64,000 nucleotides of DNA from Methanoculleus sp. 7T (GCF_023195915.1 NZ_JALPRP010000001.1:1178001-1242000); one strand, 5' to 3'; counted from the first letter of the stretch, positions 3,956 through 19,191 are shown. Notes: a model not told the origin generated them from the sequence alone. A program made the numbers and translations.

Positions 3956-5236
3956 ATGCCTAACGCGCCGAAGGTCCTCGGCATGCCCGCGGAGAGGGGA
4001 AGGTGGGGGCTCGTAGCCCTCGGGCTCCTCATCAACCTCTGCCTCGGGAGCATCTACTCTTGGAGCGTCTTCGTGACGCCGCTTGCGGCTCACTTCACCG
4101 CGACGCTCGGCAGGGAGGTGACGGCGGGGGAGGTGCTCCTCCCGTTCTCGGTCTTCCTCGCCTTCTTCGCCGTTGCGATGCCGCTCTCCGGGAAATACAT
4201 CGAACGCTACGGTCCGCGAGCGATGACGATCGTGGGCGGGCTCCTCACCGGCCTCGGGTGGCTCCTCGCCTCGACGGCGACGTCCATCCAGATGCTCTAC
4301 ATCGTCTACGGGGTCATCGGGGGGCTCGGGGTCGGGATCGCCTACGGGGCGCCGGTCGCCGTGGCGGCCCGGTGGTTCCCGGACCGGCGGGGGCTCGCAG
4401 TCGGGCTTACCCTGCTCGGGTTCGGGTTCTCGGCGTTTTTCACCGCCAACGCCGCGGGAGCCCTGATCGCCGCATACGGGGTGATGGCGACCTTCGGGAT
4501 ATTCGGGGCCGTCTTCATCGTCGTGCTGGCGCTCTCGGCCCTGCCGCTCCGGTTCCCGCCGGAAGGCTGGCGGCCTGAGGGATGGAGGCCGCCCGCGCCG
4601 GGCACGGGGACCGTACCCGCCTGCGAGTGCGATCGAAAGGCGATGCTCCGAACCGGGACCTTCTACGGGCTCTTCGCCTGCTACTTCATCGGCTGCCTCG
4701 CGGGACTCGCCGCGATCTCGATCGCAAAGCCGGTCGGGACCGAGGTCGCCGGGGTCGATGCCGGGCTCGCGACGCTCCTCGTCGGGCTCTTCGCCGTCTT
4801 CAACGGGCTGGGAAGACCGGTGTTCGGCAGCCTCGCCGACCGGATCACCCCTCGCACCACGGCGATGCTGACGTTCGCCCTGATCGCGGCCGCTTCAGTC
4901 CTGATCTGGCTCGTCCCGGGAGTCCCCGCCTACATCCTCTCGTTCGCGGTCCTCTGGGGGTGTCTCGGAGGGTGGCTCGCCATCGCACCGACGGCGACGG
5001 CGGCCTACTTCGGGACGTGCGACTATCCGCGGTGCTACGGGGTCGTCTTCCTCGCCTACGGCGCCGGCGCAATCGCCGGGCCGCAACTCGCAGGGTTCGT
5101 CAGGACGGCGACCGGGACCTACCTCGGGGTCTTCCCCGCGGTGGCGGCCCTTGCCGTTGTGGGGTTCGCCGTCGCCTGGCTCCTGCTACGGCCGGTAAGA
5201 ACAGATGAGGACCGAAGGCTTACGCCTTCTCGGTGA
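3956..5236 (+). CDS. MFS transporter, oxalate/formate antiporter (OFA) type
   Basis: A 426-residue polytopic protein with about 12 membrane helices and the MFS halves separated by a cytoplasmic loop near residues 205-225. The opening segment NLCLGSIYSWSVF and the loop motif LADRITPR resemble the OFA (oxalate/formate antiporter) branch, whose members carry small carboxylates. It starts 22 bp after acs with ribosome site GAGGGTGG, which suggests uptake or exchange of acetate or a similar monocarboxylate; this is inferred from context only. Its 3' end overlaps the convergent RNase III-domain gene by 17 bp. Confidence 0.85.
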   Translation: MPNAPKVLGMPAERGRWGLVALGLLINLCLGSIYSWSVFVTPLAAHFTATLGREVTAGEVLLPFSVFLAFFAVAMPLSGKYIERYGPRAMTIVGGLLTGLGWLLASTATSIQMLYIVYGVIGGLGVGIAYGAPVAVAARWFPDRRGLAVGLTLLGFGFSAFFTANAAGALIAAYGVMATFGIFGAVFIVVLALSALPLRFPPEGWRPEGWRPPAPGTGTVPACECDRKAMLRTGTFYGLFACYFIGCLAGLAAISIAKPVGTEVAGVDAGLATLLVGLFAVFNGLGRPVFGSLADRITPRTTAMLTFALIAAASVLIWLVPGVPAYILSFAVLWGCLGGWLAIAPTATAAYFGTCDYPRCYGVVFLAYGAGAIAGPQLAGFVRTATGTYLGVFPAVAALAVVGFAVAWLLLRPVRTDEDRRLTPSR

Positions 5237-5696
5237 GCCCGAGCCGCCGGAGCACGCCTGCGGCCGCATCCATACCGCCGTCCAGGTAGACGGCGCCGAT
5301 GAGCGCCTCCATGCACTCGGCAAGGACCCGGCCGGATGTCCAGACCGTCTGGGCGGCCTCGCCCTTTCCCCAACGGACGTAGTCGGCGAGGTCGAGGCCC
5401 TCCGCGAGCCCGCGAAGCCGGGTCATGTTCACCAGGTTCATCTTCCGGTTGCTGATCGCGCCTTTATCGTGCGCCCCCCGCGCGACCACCGCTTCCACGA
5501 CCACCACGTTGATGACCGCATCGCCGAGGGTCGCGAGGGCGTCCATGTGGTCCTCGGGAGGGAGGCCCGCCTCCAGAGTGTAGGCGAGGCGGGTGAGGGC
5601 ACGCTCGAGGAGCGAGCGGTCCCGGAAGGTGTAGCCGACCCGCTCCTCGACCTCGGCCGGGTTCCGGCGGCCGGCGCCGGCGTCGCTGTTCTTCAT
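5220..5696 (-). CDS. stand-alone ribonuclease III-domain protein
   Basis: A 158-residue protein consisting of little more than an RNase III domain, with no double-stranded RNA-binding domain. The signature region reads LATLGDAV at residues 54-61 and the second metal-site region AECMEALIGAVYLDGG at 126-141. Against the classic ERLEFLGDAVL signature the invariant Asp (Asp59) and last Glu (Glu130) remain, the second-region Asp is Glu127, but the metal-binding Glu of LEF is Ala55. Activity may therefore be lost or altered. RNase III is uncommon in archaea. A cyclophilin gene lies 13 bp upstream on the same strand and may be co-transcribed. Confidence 0.8.
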   Translation of the reverse strand: MKNSDAGAGRRNPAEVEERVGYTFRDRSLLERALTRLAYTLEAGLPPEDHMDALATLGDAVINVVVVEAVVARGAHDKGAISNRKMNLVNMTRLRGLAEGLDLADYVRWGKGEAAQTVWTSGRVLAECMEALIGAVYLDGGMDAAAGVLRRLGLTEKA

Positions 5697-5709
5697 GGAC
5701 AGAGCGGCG

Positions 5710-6204
5710 TTACTCCACGACTTCCGCCTTCTCGATCCGGACCGCGACCTTCGGCTTGTCGGCGGAGTTCGTCTTCACCTTCCCGATCTTGTCGACGACG
5801 TCCATCCCCTCCACCACCTCGCCGAAGACCGGGTGGGCGCTCGGCGTCCGGGGGTCGTCCCAGTCGAGGTAGGTGTTGTCCACCAGGTTGATGAAGAACT
5901 GGCTGCCGCCGGTGTTCGGGCGGCCGGTGTTCGCCATGGCGATCGTGCCCCGGCGGTTCGAGCGGCCCTTCACGAACTCGTCGGTGATGGTGTAGCCGGG
6001 TCCGCCCGTCCCGGTGCCGGTCGGGTCGCCGCCCTGGATCATGAACCGGTCGATGACCCGGTGGAAGATCGTGCCGTCGTAGAACCCAGATTTGACCAGT
6101 TTTTCAAAGTTTCCTGCGGTCACCGGCATATCATCGTAGAGGCGAATCGTGATGTCGCCCATGGTCGTGTGGAGCACGACCAACGTTGCGTTCTTGTCTG
6201 CCAT
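5710..6204 (-). CDS. cyclophilin-type peptidyl-prolyl cis-trans isomerase
   Basis: A small cytoplasmic cyclophilin of 164 residues that catalyses proline isomerisation during protein folding. Family motifs are visible in order: FHRVIDRFMIQGGDPTGTG with the catalytic Arg, NTGGSQFFI, and PVFGEVVEGMDVVDKI. I start at the ATG at 6204, where GGAG lies nine bases upstream and the homologous fold begins; the frame is open to 6264 but the extra residues do not look like a cyclophilin. No signal peptide is present. It precedes the RNase III-domain gene on the same strand. Confidence 0.94.
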   Translation of the reverse strand: MADKNATLVVLHTTMGDITIRLYDDMPVTAGNFEKLVKSGFYDGTIFHRVIDRFMIQGGDPTGTGTGGPGYTITDEFVKGRSNRRGTIAMANTGRPNTGGSQFFINLVDNTYLDWDDPRTPSAHPVFGEVVEGMDVVDKIGKVKTNSADKPKVAVRIEKAEVVE

Positions 6205-6235
6205 AAGAAAAATCTCCGTAAGGTATTGTCTATCG

Positions 6236-6250
6236 TTGCTACTTATAGTG
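6236..6250 (-). promoter_or_regulatory. TATA-type promoter of the cyclophilin gene
   Basis: Read on the minus strand, CACTATAAGTAG gives a good archaeal TATA element centred about 40 bases before the cyclophilin start codon, leaving room for a short leader with the GGAG ribosome site. Confidence 0.45.
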
Positions 6251-6547
6251 CGTGACGCAGGCATCCCCGGTGCGGGGGGCGCCGAGATCTCCCTATGTTT
6301 GTCTTCGAACCCCTGACCGGAGCGCCACGGAGGGGAAAAGGCGGGGAAACGCCGGTATCCGCGGCGATTCCGTTCAAGGTCGTTTGAGGTTAACCAAATG
6401 ATCTAAACACAAATAAGAAGTAAAATGTTATTAGTCCGAACGTGTACGTAGTATCATGTATCCTGGAGCGAACCTGCCGTCGATCACTCATTATCCGGGC
6501 CGGCCCGTGCCCACATCAGCCCTTCCCCTCACCGGAGGCTTTGCCTG

Positions 6548-7240
6548 ATGAGCGACCAGACACCGGTCTTCATCATCACCGGTGAGCAAGGACAGTGCAA
6601 GACGACGTTCCTGCACCTGGTTCTCGGGCTCACCGTCGGGCTGAACGTCCGGGTCAGGGGCGTGCTCGCTCCCGGCCATGTGCGGAACGGCCGGAGATCA
6701 GGATTTACCCTCGTCGACCTTGCCACCGGCGAGCACGAGGAACTCTGTTCGATCGATCCCGATCTCAGGTGCGAGGTCCACGGTCGATTTTACTTCCGGT
6801 CCGAAGGGCTCGCCTTCGGCCGCAGGGCGCTCGCGCCGCCGGACCCCAGAGAGACCGATCTGGTCGTCATCGACGAGGTAGGGAGGTTCGAACTCCAGGG
6901 CGCGGTCTGGGCCGACCAGATCGACCGACTGCTCGCGCTCCCGCACCCCCCGATGATCTGGACCGTTCGGCGCCGGCTTCTCGATACGGTCATCCAACGC
7001 TGGACGATTGGGAACCCCATCGTGGTGGACGTCAGGAACGCCAGTGTGATGGCGACGGCAAGCGACGTGATGGACGCCGTCTGGGAGTGGCGGGAGGCGC
7101 AGGCGGTCTCCGTGGTTCCGGTGCCTCCGCTCCCCCAAAGCCGCATCACAGGCGATCCCCCGCTGCTCGCGGATGCGGCCGCCGGAGTTTCTCCGAGCGC
7201 CCCGGCGATCCTCCGGAGACGTTACGGCCCGGAAGGGTGA
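6548..7240 (+). CDS. THEP1-like nucleotide-binding protein with altered P-loop
   Basis: A 230-residue protein resembling the THEP1/DUF265 nucleoside-triphosphatases. The P-loop is GEQGQCKTT at residues 12-20, where Cys17 replaces the usual Gly before the lysine. The Walker B region VVIDEVGRFEL (about 106-116) is the characteristic THEP1 motif. About 45 C-terminal residues, rich in Pro and Ala, extend beyond the domain. GGAGG nine bases before the ATG fixes the start. It stands alone between the cyclophilin and the metal-uptake operon; a regulatory or cofactor-linked NTPase role is possible but unproven. Whether it still hydrolyses NTP is uncertain. Confidence 0.7.
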   Translation: MSDQTPVFIITGEQGQCKTTFLHLVLGLTVGLNVRVRGVLAPGHVRNGRRSGFTLVDLATGEHEELCSIDPDLRCEVHGRFYFRSEGLAFGRRALAPPDPRETDLVVIDEVGRFELQGAVWADQIDRLLALPHPPMIWTVRRRLLDTVIQRWTIGNPIVVDVRNASVMATASDVMDAVWEWREAQAVSVVPVPPLPQSRITGDPPLLADAAAGVSPSAPAILRRRYGPEG

Positions 7241-7322
7241 GGAAGACCCGGATCTCCGCCCAGTTCAAAATAACAAAACAATAACGGCAACGGGCGCTGC
7301 CTCTGAAGGCCGCCCGCGCTCC

Positions 7323-7329
7323 TTTTTTT
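7323..7329 (+). terminator. T-run terminator after the THEP1-like gene
   Basis: Seven T residues follow a GC-rich segment able to pair (GGGCG with CGCCC). This is a typical stop signal for the gene ending at 7240. Confidence 0.5.
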
Positions 7330-7503
7330 CCCGCTTTTAATCAACATACGAGCACGGGGAGAGGATCCGGAGACTGGGTCCGACACCGGGCACACCGGTC
7401 TTGTATCGATGGTCGGAGGCGACATCAGGGGCCCTACTGATGGGTCCTCCGTCACCGCCGAGGCGGGAACCGGACTTTTAACCAAACCCTTTTATTGCGG
7501 AAG

Positions 7504-7527
7504 TAAATGTTATATCGTTTACATTAA
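7504..7527 (+). promoter_or_regulatory. inverted repeat in the metal-uptake promoter
   Basis: TAAATGT (7504-7510) and ACATTAA (7521-7527) form a dyad with one mismatch around a 10-bp centre containing TATATCG. It lies 44 bp before the permease start and overlaps the likely TATA box. A metal-responsive repressor of the DtxR type is a reasonable candidate ligand (inference). Confidence 0.4.
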
Positions 7528-7570
7528 CACAAAATTAAATAAAAGTAATATCAAGATCAGGTATGGATTG

Positions 7571-8764
7571 GTGCGCCGGATGACCTGTGGGAAAGAACCG
7601 ACCGTGGAGGCCGGGCAGAAGCCCGAGAAGAACGCTGTGATCGGTCCCCCGTGGGTTACCCCCCGTCGAGGCACGTCGGTTCACGAGGCCGTTCTCCGGT
7701 TCATCCCGGCAGGAAAGGCGATCTACCTCCTCCCGATCGTCCTCTTCCTCTTCTCCCTCTTCTTCGGGAGATATATGATGGACCCGGTGGAGACCCTCAG
7801 GATTCTCGTCGTCGGGTCGGCGAACGCACTCCTCGACGGTGCGTCGTCCCTGCTCTCGACCCTCTCCGGTCATCAGGTTCTCCTCCCCTCCTTCGAGCAG
7901 ACCTGGAGCGCATCGGAAGAGACGGTCGTCTTCCGGATCAGGCTTCCGCGGGTGATAGCGGCGATGCTCGTCGGAGGGGGGCTCGCCCTCGCCGGGGCCT
8001 CGTTCCAGGGCCTCTTCCGAAACCCCCTCGTCTCGCCCGACATCCTCGGCGTGGCCGCCGGCGCGGGGTTCGGGGCGGCGCTCGGTATCCTCCTCTCCGG
8101 CAACCCCTGGGTCATCCAGGTCTCCGCATTCATCTTCGGGATCGTCGCGGTCGCCGTCACCTACGGGATCAGCCGCATCTACAAAAACACCTCGACCCTC
8201 GTCCTCGTCCTCGCAGGGATCATCGTCGGATCCCTCTTCTCCGCCCTCCTCTCCCTCGCCAAATACGTCGCCGACCCCTACGACACCCTGCCCGCGATCG
8301 TCTTCTGGCTGATGGGGAGCCTCTCTGCGGTCACAAACGCCGACATCATCGCGGTCGCTCCCCCGATCCTCCTCGGGGGCCTCTGCCTCTTCCTCATCAG
8401 GTGGCGGATCAACCTCCTCTCGGTCGGCGAAGAGGAGGCGCAGGCGCTCGGGCTGGACACCAGGAGGATGACCGTGGCGATCATCGTCGCCTCGACCGTC
8501 GTCACCGCCTCTGCGGTCTGTATCAGCGGGATCGTCGGCTGGGTGGGCCTCGTCGTTCCCCACATAGGGAGGATGCTCGTCGGCCCGGATTTCCGGAGAC
8601 TCATCCCCGCCTCGGCCCTTCTCGGAGCCTCGTTCCTTCTCGTCGTCGACGATATCGCAAGAACCCTGACCGCAACCGAGATCCCTCTCGGCATCCTGAC
8701 GGCGCTCATCGGCGCGCCGTTCTTCGCATACCTCTTAACCCAAAAGAAGGTCGGCTGGACATGA
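7571..8764 (+). CDS. FecCD/BtuC-type ABC transporter permease
   Basis: Integral membrane permease for iron-chelate or corrinoid uptake. About ten membrane helices begin near residue 45 after a hydrophilic N-terminal extension. Family hallmarks include LPRVIAAMLVGGGLALAGA, the loop FQGLFRNPLVSPDILGVAAG, and a C-terminal GLVVPHIGRMLVGPD that contacts the ATPase. I choose GTG 7571 because ATCAGG lies eight bases upstream; ATG 7580 is also possible. The frame is open back to 7409 but that part is promoter-like. It overlaps the ATPase gene by ATGA, so the two are translationally coupled. Substrate is not decidable from sequence. Confidence 0.9.
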   Translation: MRRMTCGKEPTVEAGQKPEKNAVIGPPWVTPRRGTSVHEAVLRFIPAGKAIYLLPIVLFLFSLFFGRYMMDPVETLRILVVGSANALLDGASSLLSTLSGHQVLLPSFEQTWSASEETVVFRIRLPRVIAAMLVGGGLALAGASFQGLFRNPLVSPDILGVAAGAGFGAALGILLSGNPWVIQVSAFIFGIVAVAVTYGISRIYKNTSTLVLVLAGIIVGSLFSALLSLAKYVADPYDTLPAIVFWLMGSLSAVTNADIIAVAPPILLGGLCLFLIRWRINLLSVGEEEAQALGLDTRRMTVAIIVASTVVTASAVCISGIVGWVGLVVPHIGRMLVGPDFRRLIPASALLGASFLLVVDDIARTLTATEIPLGILTALIGAPFFAYLLTQKKVGWT

Positions 8765-9564
8765 TTCTCAACGTCAACAACGCCTCGTTCTCATACGACG
8801 GCATCAGAAAGCAATTTGAAGATATCTCCTTCTCTCTCCGGAGAGGGGAGGTGCTCTCCCTCCTCGGGAGGAACGGCACGGGAAAATCGACCCTGATCAA
8901 GTGCATCCTAAACATCCTCACGCCCCAGAGCGGGAGGGTGGATATCAACGGGCGCCGGGTCACCGATATGCGGCCCGAGGAGGTCGCACGGGAGGTCGGC
9001 TACGTCCCCCAGGTCCACCATGCCGTCTTCCCGTTTACCGCGCTCGACTTCGTCCTCATGGGGAGAGCCCCTCACATCTCGACTTTCTCGGTCCCGAAAG
9101 AGGAGGACTACGAGAAGGCGGAGGAGGCGTTTGCGCGGATCGGAATCGCACATCTCCGCGAGAAGTGCATCTCCGAGATGTCGGGCGGGGAGTCGCAGAT
9201 GGTGATGATCGCCCGCGCCCTCGCACAAGAGCCGTCGCTGCTCATCCTCGACGAACCGACGTCGCACCTTGATATCGGCAACCAGATGAAGGTGGTCGCG
9301 ACGATCGACCGGCTCGCCGCCGACGGGATCGCCATCCTGATGAGCACCCACTTCCCGGACCACGGGTTTCTGGTCTCGCATACGGTCGCCATCCTCCAGA
9401 ACGGCCGGTTGATTGCGCAGGGGCCGGCCGAGGACGTCATCACGAAGGAGAACCTGCACGAGGCCTACGGGGTCGATGTCTGCGTCCGCTACGTCGAAGA
9501 GGCGGAGCGGATGGTCTGCATCCCGATAAGCCCGTGCGGCTGCCGCGGCAGGGGGGAGGCATGA
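8761..9564 (+). CDS. ABC transporter ATP-binding protein, FepC/BtuD type
   Basis: The ATPase of the uptake system, 267 residues. Walker A is GRNGTGKST at 36-44, the ABC signature is MSGGES at 140-145, Walker B with the switch is LLILDEPTSHLD at 160-171, and the Q-loop lies at YVPQV near 81-85. The start ATG overlaps the permease stop codon and the end overlaps the following lipoprotein gene by ATGA. An unusual C-terminal tail contains CGCRGRG, perhaps a metal or redox site, though it could be functionally neutral. It should act at the cytoplasmic face with the preceding permease. Confidence 0.93.
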   Translation: MILNVNNASFSYDGIRKQFEDISFSLRRGEVLSLLGRNGTGKSTLIKCILNILTPQSGRVDINGRRVTDMRPEEVAREVGYVPQVHHAVFPFTALDFVLMGRAPHISTFSVPKEEDYEKAEEAFARIGIAHLREKCISEMSGGESQMVMIARALAQEPSLLILDEPTSHLDIGNQMKVVATIDRLAADGIAILMSTHFPDHGFLVSHTVAILQNGRLIAQGPAEDVITKENLHEAYGVDVCVRYVEEAERMVCIPISPCGCRGRGEA

Positions 9565-10622
9565 CGGCTCCGAGACGTCTCGCTGTGGTCGCCCTCTGCA
9601 TCGCCGCCCTCCTCCTCGCATCGGCGGGTTGCATCGCCGCGGAGCCGTCCGGAACTCGGACGGTGACGGATGCGACCGGTGCGGAGGTCGTGCTCCCGCA
9701 GGAAGTGAACAGGATTGTCTCTATCGACCCGATGGCCTCCCATATCATCCTCATGCTCGGCGGCGGGGACAGGCTTGTCGGCGCGACGTTCGGGCCTGCG
9801 AACCGGACCGTGGTGGATGAGATCTGCAGGAAGGTCTCCGGAATCCCCGCGCCCGGAAGCCCGAAAGGGTCGAACATCGAGGAGATCGTGCGGCTCGCCC
9901 CCGACCTCGTCGTCGCACGGGGGTCCTCGGCCAAAGAGGCCGGCCAGATCGCCGATGCGGGGATACCGGTCATCATGATCGAGACCGAGTCGCCTGAGGA
10001 CTTCCTCTCCGCCGTCGGGATCATCGGGGCGGCCATCGGCGCGGAGGAGCGGGCGGCTGATTACGTCGCGTGCTACCGGGAGACCGAGGAGCGCCTCCGG
10101 GCAGCCCATGCTGCCGCGCTGCAGAAGAACGTATACCTCGCAGGGTCCGGGATCCTCAAAACCGCCGGCGCCGGCTGGTACTCGGACGCCCTTCTCGCAT
10201 CCGGAGGGTGCAGGAACGTGGCGCACAACGAGATCTCGGGCGGGTGGAGAGAGGTCTCGCCCGAGCAGGTCTGTGCCTGGAACCCGGATATGATCATCCT
10301 GACGCCCTACTGTCAGGACGAGACGGCGTCCATACGGAACTCCTCCACTCTCGGCCACCTCGATGCCGTCAAGAACGGAGAGATCTACCGCATGCCCCGC
10401 TACATCGCCGCATGGGATATGCCCGTCCCCGAGAGCATCCTCGGTATGCTCTGGATAGGCTCCGTCTCAGCTCCCGACGGGGCCGGGATCGATATGCACG
10501 ACGAGGTGCAGGAGTTCTACGCCCGGTGGTATGAGGCTGACCTCGACGATGCGACGATAGAGGCCATCCTCACGGAGGAGAGCATCCTCCCGACGGAGAA
10601 GACCGCTGCAAAGGAAGAGTAG
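9561..10622 (+). CDS. substrate-binding lipoprotein of the ABC uptake system
   Basis: A 353-residue FepB/BtuF-like receptor. A hydrophobic signal segment ends in the lipobox LLASAGC, making Cys24 the likely lipid-anchored residue. The mature part begins with the family phrase RTVTDATGAEVVLP and continues with two-lobe receptor sequence, including RLAPDLVVARG and a C-terminal PESILGMLWIG segment. ATG 9561 has the strong ribosome site GGGGGGAGG and overlaps the ATPase stop codon. The protein should capture an iron chelate, corrinoid or other metal complex outside the membrane and hand it to the permease. The radical SAM fusion gene follows after 4 bp. Confidence 0.92.
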   Translation: MTAPRRLAVVALCIAALLLASAGCIAAEPSGTRTVTDATGAEVVLPQEVNRIVSIDPMASHIILMLGGGDRLVGATFGPANRTVVDEICRKVSGIPAPGSPKGSNIEEIVRLAPDLVVARGSSAKEAGQIADAGIPVIMIETESPEDFLSAVGIIGAAIGAEERAADYVACYRETEERLRAAHAAALQKNVYLAGSGILKTAGAGWYSDALLASGGCRNVAHNEISGGWREVSPEQVCAWNPDMIILTPYCQDETASIRNSSTLGHLDAVKNGEIYRMPRYIAAWDMPVPESILGMLWIGSVSAPDGAGIDMHDEVQEFYARWYEADLDDATIEAILTEESILPTEKTAAKEE

Positions 10623-10626
10623 CGGG

Positions 10627-12345
10627 ATGCCCATCTCCGACTGCCGCTTCTGCGCACACCGTTGCCGGATCCCTGAGGGAGAGCGCGGCAGGTGCGGCAT
10701 GTACCGCGGCGCCGGAGGGGCGGTCGTCGAGGTCTTCCCCGACTCCTACCTTGCACGCTACCCGACCGCCGTAGAGACGGTCCCCTTCCTCCACTTCTGG
10801 CCGGGATACACCTTCTACGCCGTCTCATCGGTCGGGTGCAACCTCGCCTGCCCCGGGTGCGTCTCAGCAATCGTTGCCGCCGACCCCCGCACCCTCGCCG
10901 GGGCGCTCGTGCGCCTGCCGCCGGCTGAGGTGGTCCGCGAAGCGGAGGCGGCAGGGTGCCGGGGAATCCTCTTCTGCATCAACGAACCCGCAGTATCCCT
11001 GCCGACCGCCCTCCGCCTTGCTGAAGCGGCGCACGACGCCGGACTGCTCTTCGGATGCTCGACAAACGGGTATCTAGGAGACGACGCTCTCTGCGCCCTT
11101 GCATCCGCCGTCGACTGCGTCAACGTGGGGCTGAAAGGAGCGACCGATGCGTGTTACCGCGAGTGCGGCGCCGCCTCGGCCGGGCCGGCCTACCTGGCCG
11201 TGTCGCACTGTTACGATGCCGGAGTCCACGTGGAGGTCTCGGCGGTCTACGTGCGGGGCCGTGAGACCGAGGTCCTCTCGGCCGCAGAGAAGGTCTCCGC
11301 CGTGGATACCGGCATCCCCTTCCAGATCATGCGATTTATGCCCTTCTCGGGAGGAAGGCAAGAGAAGGAGCCTACGGCATGCGAGGCCGAAGACCTTGCG
11401 GAGAGAGTCTCTTCCGTCCTCGACCATGTCTACCTCTTCAACACCCCGGGGACTGACCGGCTCTCCACACGATGCCCGGTCTGCGGGCGCACCCTCATCG
11501 GGCGGGCCTTCAACGGGCCGATGGGGGCAAGAGACACCTGGGCACACCGAGGAGAGAGATGCGAGTGCGGGGCTCGGGTGCCGATATCCGGTAAGATAAC
11601 TGCAGAACGGCGGCCTGAGCCGAGATACGCCGGAGGATACCGGCCGACGCGCGGGCTTGAACTCATCCGGAGCATGCTCGCGGCGGCGGGCGTCACCGAC
11701 CGGGCGGTGCAGGGCAGGGTCCTCGCCGCCGAACTCGCAGGTGGAGGGCTCTCGACGCTCCACGAGCGGATAGCCACGCCGCGAGGGTTCTGCTCGGCCC
11801 TCAGGTCGTATGCGGCCGCCGGCGGAAGGCCGGATGAGGGCGAACGCCTCTCCTCGGGCCTCCTTGCGATCGCCTCCGGGATCAGGGATAAGACCGTCGG
11901 CATGGGACGGCCCCGGGTCTATCTGGCGCTCGGCCACCCCTTGGCGCCTCTCTTTGCCGATAAGCCGGAGATATCGCTCATCAGTTCCGCCGGCGGCTAC
12001 CCGGTGAACCGCAACCTCGGCCGGAACGATGGGGATGCGCGGCCGGTCACGGCCCGGGAGGTCGAGGCGTTGCGGCCTGATGTCGTCTTCTATCAAGCGG
12101 TCGCCCCGATCGATACCGAGACCTTTGCTAGGGCCTGCCTCAATCTCGGGGTGCTTGCGGAAGCTGTCGAGCGGGGTGCCGTGCACCGGTTCCCAACCGG
12201 CAAAAAGACGGGGTGCCTCGGGTGGGCGGCATCGATCGCGGCCGTGGCCGGCCTCCTCCATCCCGGGGCGGGGATACCCAGCCCGGAGGAGGTCGAGGAA
12301 GAGGTGCTCTCGTGCGTCCGTGCGGTGGGCGGGGAGATCCTCTGA
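10627..12345 (+). CDS. radical SAM protein fused to a receptor-like C-terminal domain
   Basis: A 572-residue cytoplasmic protein without signal peptide. The N-terminus has a Cys cluster (C6, C9, C13, C23) like PflA-related COG1180 activases. The radical SAM core carries CNLACPGC with C71, C75 and C78 for the 4Fe-4S cluster. A zinc-ribbon-like set follows at C283, C286, C312 and C314. From about residue 428 the sequence resembles the C-terminal lobe of FepB/BtuF receptors (GRPRVYLALGHPLAPLF). It sits 4 bp behind the uptake genes and has a convergent paralogue at 12359-14095. Chemical handling of the imported metal or cofactor is a hypothesis; the true reaction is unknown. Confidence 0.85.
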   Translation: MPISDCRFCAHRCRIPEGERGRCGMYRGAGGAVVEVFPDSYLARYPTAVETVPFLHFWPGYTFYAVSSVGCNLACPGCVSAIVAADPRTLAGALVRLPPAEVVREAEAAGCRGILFCINEPAVSLPTALRLAEAAHDAGLLFGCSTNGYLGDDALCALASAVDCVNVGLKGATDACYRECGAASAGPAYLAVSHCYDAGVHVEVSAVYVRGRETEVLSAAEKVSAVDTGIPFQIMRFMPFSGGRQEKEPTACEAEDLAERVSSVLDHVYLFNTPGTDRLSTRCPVCGRTLIGRAFNGPMGARDTWAHRGERCECGARVPISGKITAERRPEPRYAGGYRPTRGLELIRSMLAAAGVTDRAVQGRVLAAELAGGGLSTLHERIATPRGFCSALRSYAAAGGRPDEGERLSSGLLAIASGIRDKTVGMGRPRVYLALGHPLAPLFADKPEISLISSAGGYPVNRNLGRNDGDARPVTAREVEALRPDVVFYQAVAPIDTETFARACLNLGVLAEAVERGAVHRFPTGKKTGCLGWAASIAAVAGLLHPGAGIPSPEEVEEEVLSCVRAVGGEIL

Positions 12346-12358
12346 CTGGGCCGGCCGC

Positions 12359-14095
12359 CTACGGTCGGTAGAACGACCGGTTTCCAGTGGCTCCGGCCGC
12401 GCCGGTCCCGTAAAACGTCCGGTAGAACCTGTCTTGTTCTTCGGCGAGGTCGAATGCGACGCACTCCGGGTGGAGGACGCCGGCGATGGCGGAGAGGCCG
12501 AGAACCCAGCGGGGGTTGCCGAAGTCCCAGCCCGGCGGCATGGTGTAGACCCGGCCGTGCTCGACGGCGTCGGCAAAGAGCCCCATCCTCCGGCATGCCG
12601 CAAGGTAATCAGAAGCGGGTGCGGAGAGGAACCCGGATATGAAGATGTACTCGGGGTTGAACGCGGCGAACTCTTCCGGCGTTATATTGACACCCGGCTT
12701 TCCGGCCCGGGCGATCCCGCGGTTGACGGGGTCGCCGCCGGCCGCCTCCACGAGGTCCATCTCGAACCGCTCGGCGTTCAGGGCGAAGAGCGGCGTCCCC
12801 ATCGAGTAGTAGACCCGGGGCCGGCGGCAGCCCTCAACCGCCGACGAGACCGCCGCCACCCGGTCGCGGATATAGGCGGCGAGTCTCTCCGCCGCCTCGG
12901 GGCGGCCCGCACGTTCTCCGAGTTCTCGGACAAGCTCGAGGTAACCGTCGATCCTCTGGATCTTCCCGTGGAGGTCTCTGATATAGTCGTCCCTGATGAC
13001 CCCGGCCCAGATACGGGCGAGGTCGGCGTCGGACTCAACGCCGAGGCAGACGAGGACGGCATGGACCATCTCAAGCGCCCGAGTGAACCGGTAGCCGCCC
13101 ATCATCCCGGGCTCGCAGTAGGGCGTCTCTCCGATACTCCCGGCCACGGGGAGCGCAAAACCGCAGGAGCACCGGGCGTCCGGCGGGATGGCGATCGTCC
13201 GCGCCCCCATCGGCCCGAAGAACTCCCGCCGGACGACCGTCTTCCCGCAGGACGGGCACGCCGTGTTGAGGTATTCCGTCCCGGGCGAGTTGAAGAGGTA
13301 GACGTAGCGGAGCGTCCGGCGCAGTTCGTCGCAGATCCGCTCAGACTCCGCAATCGTCGGCTCCATCTCGGGCGGCTCGTCGCCGAACGGTATGAACCGC
13401 ATGACGAGGAACGGAATATCGGGGGATATCTCCGCAATCCGAGCGGCCGCGGCGCGGATCTCGTCGTCGGAGCCTCGGGCGTGGATGCAGGAGACCTCGA
13501 CATGGACGCCTGCTTCGCGGAGGGTCTTTACCGTCCGGAAAGCCGGGTCCGCCGAGACCGCCCCGCACGCCCGGTAGCGTGCATCGGACGCCCCTTTCAG
13601 CCCGATGTTTGCGAAGTCGACGGCTGATGCAACGTCACGGAGAGCCTCTTCGGTATAGTAGCCGTTCGTCGCGCACCCAACGAGGAGACCGGCATCGTGC
13701 GCCGCACTGGCCACCCGGAGGAAGGTCTGGTGCATGGCGGTCGGGTCGTTGAGGCAGAACGCAATCCCTCGGCACCCCTCCTCCCTGGCGCGCCCGACCA
13801 GGGTGTCGGGCGGGATATGCCTGAGGGCCCCGGAGACGGCCTCGGCGTGGTGGGCGACCGTCTCGGATATGCACCCGCCGCAGGAGAAGGTGCACCCGAT
13901 GCCGCTTACCTGCAGGAACGTCTCCCTGGGATAGTAGTGGCACATCGGCAGCGTCTCGATGGATATCGGCATGGCAGCGATATAACGGTCTGGGAACCGC
14001 TCGACGACCGTCCCGTCTCTGTTCGTGTACATTCTGCACCGCCCGGTCCCCCCGGGAGGGATGGTGCAACGGTTCTCGCAGATAGAACACCGCAT
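12359..14095 (-). CDS. second radical SAM/receptor-like fusion protein
   Basis: A 578-residue paralogue of the convergent gene ending 13 bp away, with the same layout: N-terminal Cys set C3, C6, C10, C20; radical SAM motif CTFSCGGC (C68, C72, C75); zinc-ribbon-like C280, C283, C309, C311; then a receptor-like lobe from about residue 425 with RPRVYYSMGTPLFAL and a closing WVLGLSAIAGVLHPE. No signal peptide is seen. The start at 14095 follows the methyltransferase stop by two bases; the frame is open much further upstream, but that overlaps the methyltransferase gene in another frame. Tight spacing argues for one operon of receptor, methyltransferase and this enzyme. Confidence 0.85.
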   Translation of the reverse strand: MRCSICENRCTIPPGGTGRCRMYTNRDGTVVERFPDRYIAAMPISIETLPMCHYYPRETFLQVSGIGCTFSCGGCISETVAHHAEAVSGALRHIPPDTLVGRAREEGCRGIAFCLNDPTAMHQTFLRVASAAHDAGLLVGCATNGYYTEEALRDVASAVDFANIGLKGASDARYRACGAVSADPAFRTVKTLREAGVHVEVSCIHARGSDDEIRAAAARIAEISPDIPFLVMRFIPFGDEPPEMEPTIAESERICDELRRTLRYVYLFNSPGTEYLNTACPSCGKTVVRREFFGPMGARTIAIPPDARCSCGFALPVAGSIGETPYCEPGMMGGYRFTRALEMVHAVLVCLGVESDADLARIWAGVIRDDYIRDLHGKIQRIDGYLELVRELGERAGRPEAAERLAAYIRDRVAAVSSAVEGCRRPRVYYSMGTPLFALNAERFEMDLVEAAGGDPVNRGIARAGKPGVNITPEEFAAFNPEYIFISGFLSAPASDYLAACRRMGLFADAVEHGRVYTMPPGWDFGNPRWVLGLSAIAGVLHPECVAFDLAEEQDRFYRTFYGTGAAGATGNRSFYRP

Positions 14096-14097
14096 GC

Positions 14098-14745
14098 CTA
14101 CCGCCCCCGATCGATCATGGCCCAGAGCCCTGAGTCGTCGCTGATGATCCGGTGGCGAAGGCCGAGGTCCGCGAGGACGCCCGCGACCCGTTCCCGGTTG
14201 CCGGGGCCGAGGTTCCTGTCCCGGAAGCTCTTCCAATCCGGGTTCTCCTTCGTCATCGCGACCTGCACTGCGTCCCGGAGTTCGGCGGTCCCGAACCCGC
14301 CCCCGACGTAGGCCCTCCCCCCGGGCGCGAGAACCCGGTGAATCTCTGAGAATGCCCGGGAGAGGTCCTCCCAGAAGAAAACCGACCCGCGGCTGACCGC
14401 GAGGTCGACGGAACCCGCGGGGAGCGGGATCTCGTGGACGTCGCCGGCAAGAGGCGAGACGCGGTCCGAGAGCCCGGCTTCCCGGGCGTTCTCTTCGGCG
14501 ACGGCAAGCATATCCGGGGACGAGTCGAGGAGCGTTACGGTAAGGTCGCTCGCCCGCGCAAGCGCGATCCCGAGCGACCCTGGGCCGCTGCCGACGTCGA
14601 GGCACCGCCCGCGGGAGATCCCGCATCGATCAAGGATCTGCCCCGCGAGCACCGGGTAGACCGGGGCGAAGACCGTCTTTGCGATCCGGTCCATGTGCTC
14701 CGCCCCTTCGCGGTCGAACCTGCCTGGTGTGTAGTTCATGCTCAT
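14098..14745 (-). CDS. class I SAM-dependent methyltransferase
   Basis: A 215-residue methyltransferase of the ubiE/COQ5-like type. The SAM-binding motif I is LDVGSGPGSLG at 49-59; further motifs are VTLLDSSPDMLAVA, AGDVHEIPLPAGSVDLAVSR and RVLAPGGRAYVGGG. The substrate cannot be read from the sequence. It lies between a lipoprotein receptor gene (gap 7 bp) and the second radical SAM fusion (gap 2 bp), so it probably methylates a small molecule made or imported by this operon. The start is the ATG at 14745 preceded by GAAGG; ATG 14739 would be two codons shorter. Confidence 0.88.
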   Translation of the reverse strand: MSMNYTPGRFDREGAEHMDRIAKTVFAPVYPVLAGQILDRCGISRGRCLDVGSGPGSLGIALARASDLTVTLLDSSPDMLAVAEENAREAGLSDRVSPLAGDVHEIPLPAGSVDLAVSRGSVFFWEDLSRAFSEIHRVLAPGGRAYVGGGFGTAELRDAVQVAMTKENPDWKSFRDRNLGPGNRERVAGVLADLGLRHRIISDDSGLWAMIDRGR

Positions 14746-14752
14746 CAGGCCT

Positions 14753-15835
14753 TCAGGGATTCAGGAGGTCCCGGATCTGGTCGTCGGAGAGCGATACGTG
14801 GATGAAGGTCTCGTGGTATTCCCTGACGAGGGATTCGAGGTCCATGTCGCTGAAGAGGTCGGGATAGAGAACCTTGGCGGTCCAGGGGATCCCGATGATC
14901 CGGTTGATTCCCGGCGGACGGTCGAACCAGAAGAACGCAGTCCGCGGGATGAGGTAGACCCGGCCAGTCTTCACGGCGGTGATCTCCTGCCAGAGCGGGT
15001 CGGTCCGGACCGTGGCGTAAAACCCGGGGTCCGCGGCCAGGATAACGTCCGGGTCCCAGAGGATGATCTGCTCCATCGAGACCTCGGTCATCCCTATCCC
15101 GGGCGTGATCGGGCATTCAGCGACGTTTCTCCCACCGCAGAGGTCGATGAGGTCGGCGTGGGACGAGCCGGAGGGATCGGTCGTGAGCCCTTTCGGGCCC
15201 TCGGCGTAGTAGACCCCCACGCGTTCGCCGTCGGGAATCGAGGCCACCCGCTCCGTCACCGTACCGAGCACGCCCTCATAGAAGGCGATCATCGCTTCGG
15301 CCTGCTTCTCCTCTCCAAGGAGTTCGCCCATGAACCTGATGGGCGCCGAGTATCCGGTGGCGTTGACGGTATCCTCAACGGCGACGACCGGGATGGAACC
15401 CATCTTCTGCTGCCGCTCTGTGACCGAGGCAAGCGCCGCCCCGCCGTCGGTGGTGTAGCCTTCGACGACGATGTCGGGGTGCATCGATATGAAGTTCTCG
15501 TAGTTGCCGGTCTCTTTTCCGAACCAGCCGCCGACGACCGGGAGCGCCATATACCGCTCGGGGGTGTAGCCCTTCTCGGGCGGGAAGTTCCAGCCCGCGA
15601 GCCGGTCGGGCGCGACCATGTAGACGAGCATCGTCGACGGCGGCGAGGTGCAGAGGATGCTCTTGATCTCAGACGGGACGACGACGGTCCGGCCCGCCAT
15701 ATCGGTGATGGTACGGTTCTCGGCCGGGGCAGGCGTATCTTGGGTGGCTATGCAGGCGGCGGAGGCGCAGAGGAGCACTCCGAAGATGCCGAGCACGATA
15801 AGCAGAAGATGACAATGTCTTGTAATAATTACCAC
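14753..15835 (-). CDS. second substrate-binding lipoprotein (FepB/BtuF type)
   Basis: A 360-residue receptor lipoprotein with signal segment and lipobox LLCASAAC (Cys28). The mature part starts with NRTITDMAGRTVVVP, as in iron-chelate and corrinoid receptors, and contains the lobe phrases MHPDIVVEG and GINRIIGIPWTAKVLYP. It starts with GTG at 15835, with CGGAGAAGA upstream; no better in-frame ATG is visible. It is the first gene of the minus-strand operon and has no permease or ATPase beside it, so it may share the transporter encoded at 7571-9564 (inference). An AT-rich promoter lies at about 15910-15960. Confidence 0.9.
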   Translation of the reverse strand: MVIITRHCHLLLIVLGIFGVLLCASAACIATQDTPAPAENRTITDMAGRTVVVPSEIKSILCTSPPSTMLVYMVAPDRLAGWNFPPEKGYTPERYMALPVVGGWFGKETGNYENFISMHPDIVVEGYTTDGGAALASVTERQQKMGSIPVVAVEDTVNATGYSAPIRFMGELLGEEKQAEAMIAFYEGVLGTVTERVASIPDGERVGVYYAEGPKGLTTDPSGSSHADLIDLCGGRNVAECPITPGIGMTEVSMEQIILWDPDVILAADPGFYATVRTDPLWQEITAVKTGRVYLIPRTAFFWFDRPPGINRIIGIPWTAKVLYPDLFSDMDLESLVREYHETFIHVSLSDDQIRDLLNP

Positions 15836-16096
15836 ATCCGTTCGGTCTTCTCCGAGATGCTCCGGAGGAGGAGGCGTCGGAGGTTTATGATACCGTATTT
15901 TGGGAGGTGGAGGTTATTTAAAATATTCATTTAACTTTTAGATAATGTTAACTGAAATATATTGAGGCCCGCCGCCCTGACCCGGGGCGTGCGTATGCCG
16001 TCCGGTTTATCGGGAAACCTCCGGCCGCATAACCCCGGCTACCGGTTCACTATGGGGAGGGGCAAAACCGGCCACGGTGAGTCAGAAGCCCGATAC
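15836..16096. promoter_or_regulatory. promoter region of the minus-strand receptor operon
   Basis: The AT-rich part at 15910-15962 contains TATA-like sequence (minus-strand ATATTTTAAATAA) and two GTTAA elements about 17 bp apart. The long leader up to 15835 is purine/pyrimidine-biased. No gene is seen here. Confidence 0.45.
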
Positions 16097-16459
16097 TCAC
16101 TTCCCCTCGCCCCGGAGAGCCGCGAGCACGGCCTCCGCGAGCCTCTCGATCTCGTCGAACCGCGGTTCCGCCGTACCGTCTTTTACAATCCCGCATTCGG
16201 TCGCAACGACGTGCAGGTCCGGTTCGACCCCGATCTCCCGGAGTCTTCGGAGCGCACAGGCATCGCCGCAGCCGTCCAGCGCAAGGACGCGACCTGCATA
16301 GCGTGCCGCCTCTTCGAGCGAGGCCGGCGGGCGGTTTGCCGGGAGCGAGGTCTCCACAAGCTCCGGGAAGCGCTGCAGGACCACCATGCCCGCCCGAGCG
16401 GTCAGTTTCCCGGTCTTCGAGAGGCCGGAACAGGTGATGAGGGTGACGGGCTCCGTCAC
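16097..16459 (-). CDS. DGC-domain putative zinc-binding protein
   Basis: A 120-residue protein with the DGC-domain layout: Cys10 in an N-terminal TCSG motif, LDGCGDAC at 61-68, and a later ATECGIVK. Members are small, presumed metal-binding cytoplasmic proteins often found near arsenic or metal-resistance genes. It is the last gene of the cluster and starts 4 bp after the DUF2703 gene. Its molecular role is unknown; a thiol-based metal or metalloid chaperone is one possibility. Confidence 0.75.
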   Translation of the reverse strand: MTEPVTLITCSGLSKTGKLTARAGMVVLQRFPELVETSLPANRPPASLEEAARYAGRVLALDGCGDACALRRLREIGVEPDLHVVATECGIVKDGTAEPRFDEIERLAEAVLAALRGEGK

Positions 16460-16463
16460 GGCC

Positions 16464-16856
16464 TCACTCCATCTCGAGCGCCTTCATAGCCGCCCGGCCT
16501 ATCAGGTCCGGCGGGATCGCCTCGTACTCCTCGCCGTTGTAGCGAAGCGCCCGGCACTCCGTCTCCTCCCCGCAGGTGTCGCAGGAGCAGGAGCAGCAGG
16601 GCGTGTTGACCACTTCAATACCTTCAAGGAGCTCCTCGATCGGCACCCCGTTGAAGAGGAGGCTGTTTGACTCCGCGACCGCGTCATCTGGGAGAACCGT
16701 CTCGACCATCCGCACGCTGACCCCCTCCATCTCGAGGAGCATGCCGATCTCCGCGAGAACGGCCTTAAGCGTCAGCCCGGTCTCCTCGCACCGTTCGCAG
16801 GTATGCTCAATGTCTTTTCCGATGTGCTTCCATTCGATGACGAGTTCCTTCTTCAT
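16464..16856 (-). CDS. DUF2703 Cys-rich protein
   Basis: A 130-residue protein of the DUF2703 type: it opens with KELVIEWKHIG, carries HTCERCEETG near residues 18-27, and has a dense Cys segment TPCCSCSCDTCGEETEC in the C-terminal half. The fold is probably thioredoxin-like with extra metal-binding cysteines. I use the ATG at 16856, preceded by GAGAGATGAT; a start at 16871 would overlap the ACR3 stop. It follows ACR3 directly, which supports a function in arsenic or thiol-metal handling (inference from context). Confidence 0.75.
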   Translation of the reverse strand: MKKELVIEWKHIGKDIEHTCERCEETGLTLKAVLAEIGMLLEMEGVSVRMVETVLPDDAVAESNSLLFNGVPIEELLEGIEVVNTPCCSCSCDTCGEETECRALRYNGEEYEAIPPDLIGRAAMKALEME

Positions 16857-16860
16857 AGTA

Positions 16861-17955
16861 TCATCTCTCATGGGATCCGACGGGACATCTTCCTGTCGCC
16901 TCTCCTCCGTACCATCGGTCCCGGATCAGGAGCGCCACGTTCACGAGCGATAACAGCACCGGCACCTCGATCAGCGGGCCGATGACGGTGGCAAACGCCA
17001 CCCCGGAGCCGATCCCGAAGACCCCTATGGCGACGGCGATGGCGAGTTCGAAGTTGTTGCTTGCCGCTGTAAAGGAGAGCGCCGTTGCCCGGCCGTAGTC
17101 GACCCCGAGCCTCCACGACATCCGGAACGAGATGAAGAACATCGCGAGGAAGTAGATCGTGAGCGGGACGGCGACCTGCACGACGTCGAGGGGCAGCGCG
17201 ACGATATTCCCGCCCTGGGTCGAGAACATCACGACGATGGTAAAGAGCAGGGCGATGAGCGTGATCGGCGATATCTTCGGAATGAACTGCTCGTGGTACC
17301 ACGCCTTCGACCTCACCCGGAGGAGCGCAAACCTGGTGACGAACCCGGCGATGAACGGGATGCCGAGGTAGACGAAGACCGTCGCGGCGACGCCCGAGAT
17401 CGTGATCGGCACCTCCGTCCCGGTCCCGATCCCGAGAAGCGGCGGGAGGACGGTGATGAAGATGTAGGCGTAGAGGGCGTAGAAGAGCACCTGGAAGACG
17501 GAGTTCAGGCCCACGATGGCGGCGCAGTAGTCGCAGTCGCCGCAGGCAAGGTCGTTCCAGACGAGCACCATCGCGATGCACCGGGCGAGACCTACGAGAA
17601 TAAGGCCATACATAAACTCCGGCCGGCCTGCAAGGAAGACCGCCGCAAGGAGGAACATCAGCACCGGGCCGACGACCCAGTTCTGTACGACGGCAAGGCC
17701 GAGTACTCTCCTATCCCGGAAAACCCGCCCGAGTTCCTCGTAGCGGACCTTCGCAAGCGGCGGGTACATCATCAGGATCAGCCCGATGGCGATGGGAATC
17801 GATGTGGTCCCGACCGCAAACCCCGTGATCGCCGCCGGGACCGCAGGAACGAAGTAGCCGACGGCGACGCCGGCAACCATGGCAAGGACGATCCAGGGGG
17901 TCAGGTAGCGGTCGAGGAACGAGAGCCGAGGATGAGCATGACCGATAGTACCCAT
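16861..17955 (-). CDS. acr3: ACR3-family arsenite efflux permease
   Basis: A 364-residue membrane protein with about ten helices. The hallmark ACR3 segment around the essential cysteine is present ([18 protein letters not shown]), as are [15 protein letters not shown] and the helix [19 protein letters not shown]3 proteins export arsenite, probably driven by the membrane potential. The gene lies 6 bp after a small Cys-tailed protein and just before the DUF2703 gene. No arsenate reductase or ArsR is visible in the window, so the regulator and any reductase must be encoded elsewhere or replaced by the small Cys-rich proteins. Confidence 0.92.
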
Positions 17956-17961
17956 CGCCGG

Positions 17962-18261
17962 TCACCACCCCTGGCAGCCGCATCCCCCGGAATGCCGGTC
18001 CCACCCGTCGGCCCGGAACTCTCCCACGAGCGCGGCGGTGTACAGCGCCTCCGCGCCCGGCGGGATGTAGTTATGCTCCCGCACCCGCCGCACCAACTCC
18101 TCACCGAGAGCAGCATCGTCCCAGATACCCATGGCGGCGACCTCCGCAAAGACCGCATCGAGCATCGTAAAGCCGATTACGGTCCCGCCGACATTGACCC
18201 GTCGGACCTGCCGTAGTGCATCTGCGGCACAACAGGGTTTGTTCTTTCGTTTCTCTTCCAT
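17962..18261 (-). CDS. small protein with Cys-rich tail, arsenic-type cluster
   Basis: A 99-residue soluble protein that I do not recognise. It has CC near residue 9 (KPCCAAD), a central helix-rich region including GIWDDAALGEELVRRV and NYIPPG, and the tail HSGGCGCQGW. The ATG at 18261 has an excellent ribosome site GAGGTGA; a GTG at 18270 would overlap that site. It lies between the ArsP-like permease (24 bp) and ACR3 (6 bp) genes. The Cys pairs suggest metal or metalloid binding, perhaps delivery to one of the two permeases; this is inference from composition and position. Confidence 0.72.
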   Translation of the reverse strand: MEEKRKNKPCCAADALRQVRRVNVGGTVIGFTMLDAVFAEVAAMGIWDDAALGEELVRRVREHNYIPPGAEALYTAALVGEFRADGWDRHSGGCGCQGW

Positions 18262-18285
18262 TTCGTTCACCTCACGGCGGGCAGG

Positions 18286-19191
18286 TCAGGCCACGCTGAG
18301 CACCTGGAACACTACCCCGGCAAGGACGGCGACCGTGAGGATCGTCACCACAAATGCAGCGACGAGCCTTCGCTCGAAGATCGCGGCAAGAAGTGTCACC
18401 TCGGGGATGCTTGCTCCCGCGCCGCCGATGATCAGAGCCATGACCGCCCCGATACTCATCCCCTTCTCAAGGAGGACGGCACTAATCGGGATGAGCGTCT
18501 CCGCCCGGATGTACATCGGCACCCCGATCACCGCCGCCACAGGAATGGCGAGCGGGTTACCCGGCCCCGCAAGGGAGACGATCAGGTCTCCGGGAACGAA
18601 CCCGTAGATGAGCGCCCCGATGCCCGCACCGAGGAGGAGGTAGGGGAAGACCTGCCGGAAGAGGCTGACGGCGAAGGAGAACGCCCTGCGGATACGGGTG
18701 CCGTGGCCTGCGGCACAGTCGCAGGGCTCCGGGCGTCCTTCGACCATCACGTCCTTGACGTAGCGCTCGTAACCGAGCCGCCCAAGGAGAACTCCGATAC
18801 CGACGGAGGCCGCAAAAGTGACGGCGGCGTAGACGGCGGTCGGCACGACCCCGATGAGCGCGACGAGGAGGGCGAGGATCACCGGGTTTAAGAGCGGGGA
18901 GGCGAACAGAAACGACATGCAGACCCCGAAGGGAACCCCGACATCAAGGAGCCCGAGCAGGATGGGGACGGTCGAACAGGAGCAGAACGGGGTGAGCGCC
19001 CCGAACCCGGCCCCGATGACGTTCCCGACGCCCTGCCGCCTCCCGGAAAGCACGCGGCGTATCCGCTCTTCGGGGATGTAGGCCTGAAGCAGCCCGACGA
19101 GGAACGTGATCCCGACAAAGAGCAGGATCAGTTCCCCGGCGATCACGACGAAGAACTGCCCGGCGGTGGCGAGTGTTGCCGGAAGGTCCAT
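18286..19191 (-). CDS. ArsP/YraQ-type permease (PF03773-like)
   Basis: A 301-residue permease of about eight to ten helices. The signature FGALTPFCSCSTVPILLGLL in the first half and the mirrored PMYIRAETLIPISAVLLEKG in the second half are typical of the ArsP_1/UPF0718 family, some members of which export organoarsenicals. The central loop has PCDCAAGHG. GGGAGAGA precedes the ATG at 19191. In this cluster an organic arsenical or other thiol-reactive substrate is plausible, but related permeases without arsenic function exist. A 48-residue Cys-rich gene starts just upstream. Confidence 0.85.
   Translation of the reverse strand: MDLPATLATAGQFFVVIAGELILLFVGITFLVGLLQAYIPEERIRRVLSGRRQGVGNVIGAGFGALTPFCSCSTVPILLGLLDVGVPFGVCMSFLFASPLLNPVILALLVALIGVVPTAVYAAVTFAASVGIGVLLGRLGYERYVKDVMVEGRPEPCDCAAGHGTRIRRAFSFAVSLFRQVFPYLLLGAGIGALIYGFVPGDLIVSLAGPGNPLAIPVAAVIGVPMYIRAETLIPISAVLLEKGMSIGAVMALIIGGAGASIPEVTLLAAIFERRLVAAFVVTILTVAVLAGVVFQVLSVA

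Follow-up and report, generated by a model that had tools for sequence, protein, structure and literature searches.

The MolBC-A system of Haemophilus influenzae (HI1470-1472) is a Type II (BtuCD-like) ATP-binding cassette (ABC) importer with a PF01497-type receptor, MolA, which binds molybdate and tungstate. According to the accessible part of its description (PMC4031551), its cargo is the bare oxyanion, carried at low affinity, and no enzyme joining a radical S-adenosylmethionine (SAM) domain to half a receptor, no methyltransferase and no nucleoside triphosphatase (NTPase) is described with it. The same importer family is used by BtuCDF in corrinoid uptake. In bacteria, genes for molybdenum and tungsten (Mo/W) transport, for cofactor synthesis and for the enzymes themselves are named in the regulon of the molybdenum cofactor (Moco) riboswitch, as far as the available part of Regulski et al. 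2008 lists it (PMC2408646). A locus that joins such an importer to other enzymes lies in Methanoculleus sp. 7T (genome of 2.6 Mb), within a stretch of 64,000 nucleotides called here the window. Its transport part resembles MolBC-A; the radical SAM/half-receptor enzyme and its partners are seemingly what is new. The conserved loci support the view that uptake genes, radical SAM fusion and methyltransferase form one functional unit. At roughly even confidence, this unit is proposed to serve as a module for Mo/W acquisition: the fusion enzyme and the methyltransferase would work on a Mo/W complex brought in by the importer.

The module consists of two convergent operons. On the plus strand, a FecCD-type importer permease (7580..8764, with the start at GTG 7571 or ATG 7580; PF01032, E=1.4e-87) is followed by the importer ATPase (8761..9564; PF00005, E=1.6e-35) and by receptor lipoprotein A (9561..10622; PF01497, E=1.7e-21), which has a signal sequence with LLLASAGC. 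Both junctions are ATGA overlaps, and after a gap of 4 bp comes rSAM1 (10627..12345), a type B fusion of a radical SAM domain with a receptor C-lobe, recognized by its CNLACPGC motif, its match to PF04055 (Radical_SAM, E=1.8e-11), the alignment and the tree. On the minus strand, receptor lipoprotein B (14753..15835; PF01497, E=8.5e-23) is separated by 7 bp from a class I SAM-dependent methyltransferase (14098..14745; Methyltransf_11, E=7.4e-22), beside which stands rSAM2 (12359..14095), a fusion of type A with the motif CTFSCGGC and with GWDFG-PRW in its lobe, assigned with AlphaFold2 and Foldseek. The 3′ ends of rSAM1 and rSAM2 are 13 bp apart. The set of FecCD permease, PF01497 receptor and ATPase is the one found in MolBC-A-type Mo/W importers. 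A sequence-only reading of this DNA had listed the same seven genes, and all of them are present in the order, on the strands and with the tight packing it gave. It overlooked one member of the set, the upstream P-loop NTPase of the NTPase_1 family (6548..7240, plus strand; PF03266, E=9e-19). Across the genus this gene is kept beside FecCD, as in loci L037, L039, L040, L055, L058, L063, L068, L070 and L072, and its family also stands directly upstream of a type B fusion in L168 and L169. In two related loci, L038 and L055, receptor A was not found between the genes for ATPase and rSAM1.

The fusion has two parts. Residues 1-330 form a radical SAM domain with a core like that of the pyruvate formate-lyase (PFL) activase; the CxxxCxxC motif (C70, C74, C77) is invariant in an alignment of 12 diverse sequences, and so are eight further cysteines, four that precede it (C5, C8, C12, C22) and four that follow (C282, C285, C311, C313). 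Together with the PF04055 match of rSAM1 and the Foldseek match of the radical SAM part of rSAM2 to the PFL-activase 3c8f, this places the proteins in the radical SAM superfamily. Residues ~360-570 of rSAM2 match no more of a PF01497 receptor than its C-terminal half. Pfam aligns profile positions 93-233, hhalign aligns the lobe to template positions 158-353 of 359 with the N-lobe absent, and Foldseek superposes it on the receptor 4hn9 over ~190 aligned columns, with further matches to MolA, CeuE and BtuF. The AlphaFold2 model of rSAM2 is confident overall, with a predicted local distance difference test score (pLDDT) of 87.7 and a predicted template modelling score of 0.88. In PF01497 receptors the ligand is held between two lobes. 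The fusion has one of these lobes and lacks the export signal; it starts directly with the cysteine-rich radical SAM part and, as it shows no signal peptide, is expected to work in the cytosol as an enzyme that carries half a receptor. In the half-lobe, which is joined to a radical SAM barrel, the WD..P-type loop known from receptor C-lobes is retained; the most plausible substrate of such an enzyme is the ligand of the receptor. The top family match of the radical SAM parts is the enzyme of the AmmeMemoRadiSam system (TIGR04337), at 96.3 and 110.4 bits, under the curated cut-off of 220 bits. In contrast to that enzyme, the fusions carry the extra receptor C-lobe, and they fall in a clade apart from the two ordinary AmmeMemo-like rows of the tree.

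In this tree of 87 radical SAM domains, all fusions belong to one clade with a support of 100/99, and the fusion is of single origin. The few "unfused" rows inside the clade are split or truncated genes. The sister group consists of unfused radical SAM proteins, which likewise stand beside FecCD genes. The sequence-only reading had called the two fusions of the window duplicated. They are indeed related, but they share 42% identity and sit on different branches, and rSAM1 is missing from most loci of the same genus; they are old paralogues, and a tandem or local duplication is ruled out by the tree. Full-length fusions occur in a large share of the 61 genomes of the host's order, 60 of which give some match to the query, many to the general radical SAM part only. 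A scan of a wider genome collection adds Methanohalophilus, Desulfobacula, Desulfobacter, Desulfosarcina, Solidesulfovibrio, Syntrophomonas, Desulfosporosinus and one metagenome-assembled genome of Desulfurococcales. The fusion has thus spread among Methanomicrobiales, Methanohalophilus, sulfate reducers and syntrophs. Two Methanoculleus genomes have the rSAM2 gene in separate radical SAM and half-receptor pieces (L055, 8690-10427; L063, 7332-9068), for which gene decay, sequencing error and natural splitting are the candidate causes; the gene of L058 looks split too, but undetermined bases appear to lie there.

The gene neighbourhood of the fusion was counted in 67 non-redundant loci with usable flanks, with importers scored within 10 kb; these loci share descent and are not independent trials, so the counts overstate independence. 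The methyltransferase adjoins the fusion in 45 of the 67 loci, and an importer is found in 50 (FecCD in 39, ModB in 10, a Nik-type permease in 4). Fusions usually stand with an importer, and the loci take several forms. The simplest is a single operon of receptor, FecCD, ATPase, methyltransferase and fusion (L050-L053, L059-L061). The second has the convergent layout of the window, but rSAM1 and receptor A are mostly missing (L037, L039-L041, L068, L070, L072). Fuller loci include DUF364 and an O-methyltransferase (L092, L099, L101, L105), and in a fourth form the operon itself includes a TonB receptor (L136, L139). The presence of a TonB-dependent receptor in Desulfobacter and Desulfosarcina operons suggests a bulky cargo. 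In the fifth form a type B fusion stands with NTPase_1 and a Nik-type (NikABCDE/Opp-like) transporter (L168, 10483-18195; L169, 12977-18894), a second importer class for the same enzyme. The minimal unit is an importer with methyltransferase and radical SAM gene, or the latter two alone. Since different families and more than one domain of life have kept the arrangement, it is far beyond chance. No description of the module was found in the open-access library that was searched, though work published elsewhere may exist.

Two observations concern neighbouring systems. A family of ~390 amino acids (U390) accompanies the unfused radical SAM and FecCD system in archaea and bacteria (L108, 5300-6472; L164, 6363-7613; L204, 7517-8686). 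In seven sequences of it the mean column identity is 57%; the family has no significant Pfam match, and its model, with a mean pLDDT of 68, matched no known fold at E<=0.001. In L151, a cobalamin riboswitch (2507-2708) is combined with a TonB receptor, a receptor, FecCD, an ATPase and a short radical SAM protein of 239 amino acids (4753-8400). This cluster is separate and probably B12-related, with a superficial likeness to the fusion module, and similar short-radical-SAM sets are seen in L152-L155.

The two convergent operons share a promoter element. It has 23 bases (TTANCATTANCNNAAANTTAAAT), and matches with 0-1 mismatch occur in the host genome only at 7518..7540 on the plus strand (TTTACATTAACACAAAATTAAAT) and at 15929..15951 on the minus strand, before receptor B (TTAACATTATCTAAAAGTTAAAT). 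Of 11 related genomes, most have the element at the same two promoters. Before FecCD also lies a candidate operator, the inverted repeat GTAAATGTTATATCGTTTAC (7503..7522, plus strand), whose sole exact match in the genome is at this place and whose position is conserved in the FecCD upstream regions of the same genus. The almost unique element shared by the two operons, together with the conserved loci, agrees with the earlier proposal that uptake, fusion and methyltransferase genes are one unit. A third, weaker match in the host genome is located upstream of a tupA-like gene; it did not recur in the 11 relatives and was dropped as a regulon link. The host has a Mo/W transporter island elsewhere (L191, 1973-17081; G000:C1:1776000-1795900), where two tupA-like receptors, WtpA, a ModA-type receptor, permeases and ATPases are found within 16 kb.

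The identity of the metal is indicated by the control elements and neighbours of the homologues. According to Rfam, a Moco riboswitch (RF01055) is located directly upstream and on the same strand in 8 of 14 homologous Syntrophomonadia loci, both at fused loci (L193, L194 (=L111), L195, L167 (=L113)) and at loci of the unfused sister system (L164, L202, L203, L204). In Desulfosporosinus, such a riboswitch heads a run from an XdhC-like gene to receptor, FecCD, ATPase, methyltransferase, NifDK/NifH-like genes and the radical SAM fusion. The NifD-, NifK- and NifH-like genes of this genus lie between methyltransferase and fusion, near an anf (Fe-only nitrogenase) cluster (L117, 4193-7902; also L166). 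By the author's estimate, a chance same-strand Moco riboswitch within ~400 bases is expected at about 0.1% per locus; S. wolfei carries at least 15 Moco riboswitch RNAs, as stated in the part of PMC2408646 that was available. The same source ties the third stem of this riboswitch to Mo rather than W, and the two aptamers viewed retain it. The Syntrophomonadia and Desulfosporosinus homologues thus share their control element with the known regulon, while the module is not among the members that the available text names (PMC2408646).

The neighbouring genes point in the same direction. ModB is found within 10 kb of 14 of 53 radical SAM loci, against 0.94 expected, and near 4 of 23 FecCD genes linked to radical SAM genes versus none of 114 unlinked FecCD genes of the same genomes (Fisher p=6e-4). 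Mo/W markers are close to the fusion in 21 of the 67 loci: MoeA lies inside the operon of L196, L168 and L169 are flanked by modABC, two moeA genes and formylmethanofuran dehydrogenase genes, and FdhA occurs in L123. NifDK-like genes are also present in L117 and L049. Genes of DUF364, a family linked to "heavy-metal chelation" (PMC2954201), are found in 16 of the 67 loci and count for the Mo/W proposal as well. Among the PDB matches of both receptors, MolA (3psa) stands above BtuF and above the receptors for haem and siderophores. For receptor A, E=1.4e-24 is obtained with MolA versus 3.4e-9 with BtuF; for receptor B, MolA is the best characterized relative in the PDB (E=5.6e-20). The structures ranked over MolA (4pag, 4ovk, 4hn9) have no experimentally named ligand in their titles, which leaves MolA as the closest among receptors of known ligand. 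Riboswitch, ModB, other Mo/W genes and MolA match are lines of different kinds that agree on Mo/W, and the link to these metals is well supported.

Several results weigh against the Mo/W proposal. Six of the 14 Syntrophomonadia loci are without a Moco riboswitch, the matches are confined to Bacillota with none at the Desulfobacterota loci scanned, and it is for bacterial homologues, rather than for the archaeal window, that RF01055 is shown. The nearest ModB-type gene of the host is ~170 kb away, and because of this the Mo/W link comes from the relatives. Shared descent reduces the weight of the counts, and 17 of the 67 fusions have no recognized importer within 10 kb, some being bare pairs of methyltransferase and radical SAM gene. 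Finally, the ligand of MolA itself is bare molybdate, and there is thus no need for a chelate.

The mechanism favoured for a Mo/W acquisition module would proceed as follows. Receptor lipoproteins would capture Mo or W, most likely in complex with an organic chelator rather than as the bare oxyanion, and pass it to the ABC importer of FecCD type. Once the ligand is in the cytosol, the half-receptor lobe of the fusion would grip it, with the radical SAM barrel replacing the missing lobe. The fusion would then modify the ligand after import and the adjacent methyltransferase would methylate it; the chemistry of this enzyme pair is inferred. The metal would be released or passed to molybdopterin or tungstopterin assembly, a step in which the P-loop NTPase may help. 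The importer in the operon, the adjacent methyltransferase and the TonB receptor of Gram-negative members point to a bulky complex of Mo or W, altered after import, as the most likely ligand. That an imported complex is chemically remodelled, as the sequence-only reading had put it, is still the best guess. The metal may be released in this way, or a self-made chelator may be completed; the gene content is compatible with either. A more specific version, somewhat short of even in our judgement, is that strict anaerobes have here a Mo/W-chelator (molybdophore or tungstophore) system, whose radical SAM enzyme captured half a receptor to recognize and transform the imported metal complex.

The alternative that survives best, though it is unlikely, reverses the direction. 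The fusion, the methyltransferase(s) and DUF364 would make a molybdophore or tungstophore that is exported and re-imported via FecCD, and the half-lobe would hold the product or an intermediate. A further methyltransferase family (MT2) in 17, DUF364 in 16 and a BchU-like O-methyltransferase in 9 of the 67 loci, recurring in the fuller ones, are more enzymes than the release of a metal requires, and the TonB receptors of Gram-negatives fit as well. However, neither an exporter nor a chelator-scaffold synthase recurs in the core, and the minimal unit holds nothing beyond methyltransferase, radical SAM gene and, in part, the importer. An earlier tetrapyrrole idea, built on the NifDK-like, BchU-like and DUF364 neighbours, was dropped after the riboswitch and Mod evidence.

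It is rather improbable that the cargo is molybdate, tungstate or thiomolybdate in bare form, much as MolBC-A takes up the oxyanions, while the fusion and the methyltransferase do a separate job such as maturation of Mo/W enzymes or metal choice. The relationship of the receptors to MolA and the fusions that lack a nearby importer speak for such a division, as does the fast formation of thiomolybdate in sulfidic methanogen media (PMC10390477). In turn, the receptor lobe within the fusion ties the enzyme to the receptor's ligand. A slightly poorer prospect is the import or recycling of a pterin-bound metal (Moco, the tungsten cofactor or their breakdown products), with both enzymes acting on the pterin. 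Control by a Moco-sensing RNA, MoeA in the L196 operon and the XdhC-like gene of the Desulfosporosinus run would suit it, but the receptors resemble MolA and siderophore-type receptors, and plain Mo transporters are also under Moco riboswitches, according to the available part of PMC2408646.

The cargo proposed by the sequence-only reading, an iron chelate or a corrinoid remodelled after uptake, has become very doubtful. The transporter belongs to the FecCD/BtuC family, yet the permease reaches 238.7 of the 461 bits set for NCBIfam BtuC and receptor A 47.6 of 234 bits for BtuF. No cobalamin riboswitch was found with Rfam at any bacterial fusion locus scanned, the one detected belonging to the different FecCD cluster of L151; unlike BtuCDF, the homologues of the module have Moco riboswitches and Mo/W neighbours instead. 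Least credible of all is an arsenic chemistry in which methyltransferase and radical SAM enzymes make or handle organoarsenicals with the adjoining ACR3 and ArsP genes, since the top NCBIfam match of the methyltransferase, ArsM, scores 53.2 bits against a cut-off of 263 and the arsenic genes occur around same-genus loci only. The run in question (16097-19191, minus strand), next to the module, consists of a DGC domain protein, DUF2703, the ACR3 arsenite efflux gene, a 102-amino-acid protein without a family match and an ArsP_1 permease.

The genes of a Mo/W acquisition module would easily be taken for iron or B12 transport, and a likely mis-annotation is corrected by the assignment proposed here. 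Methanogens, sulfate reducers and syntrophs rely on Mo/W enzymes, and the sulfidic settings in which they live turn the metals into thio-species and minerals. Little is known of how such cells acquire Mo and W, and the module offers named genes for that question. If the proposal is true, these genes may lead to a new metal-binding small molecule and to a new radical SAM reaction.

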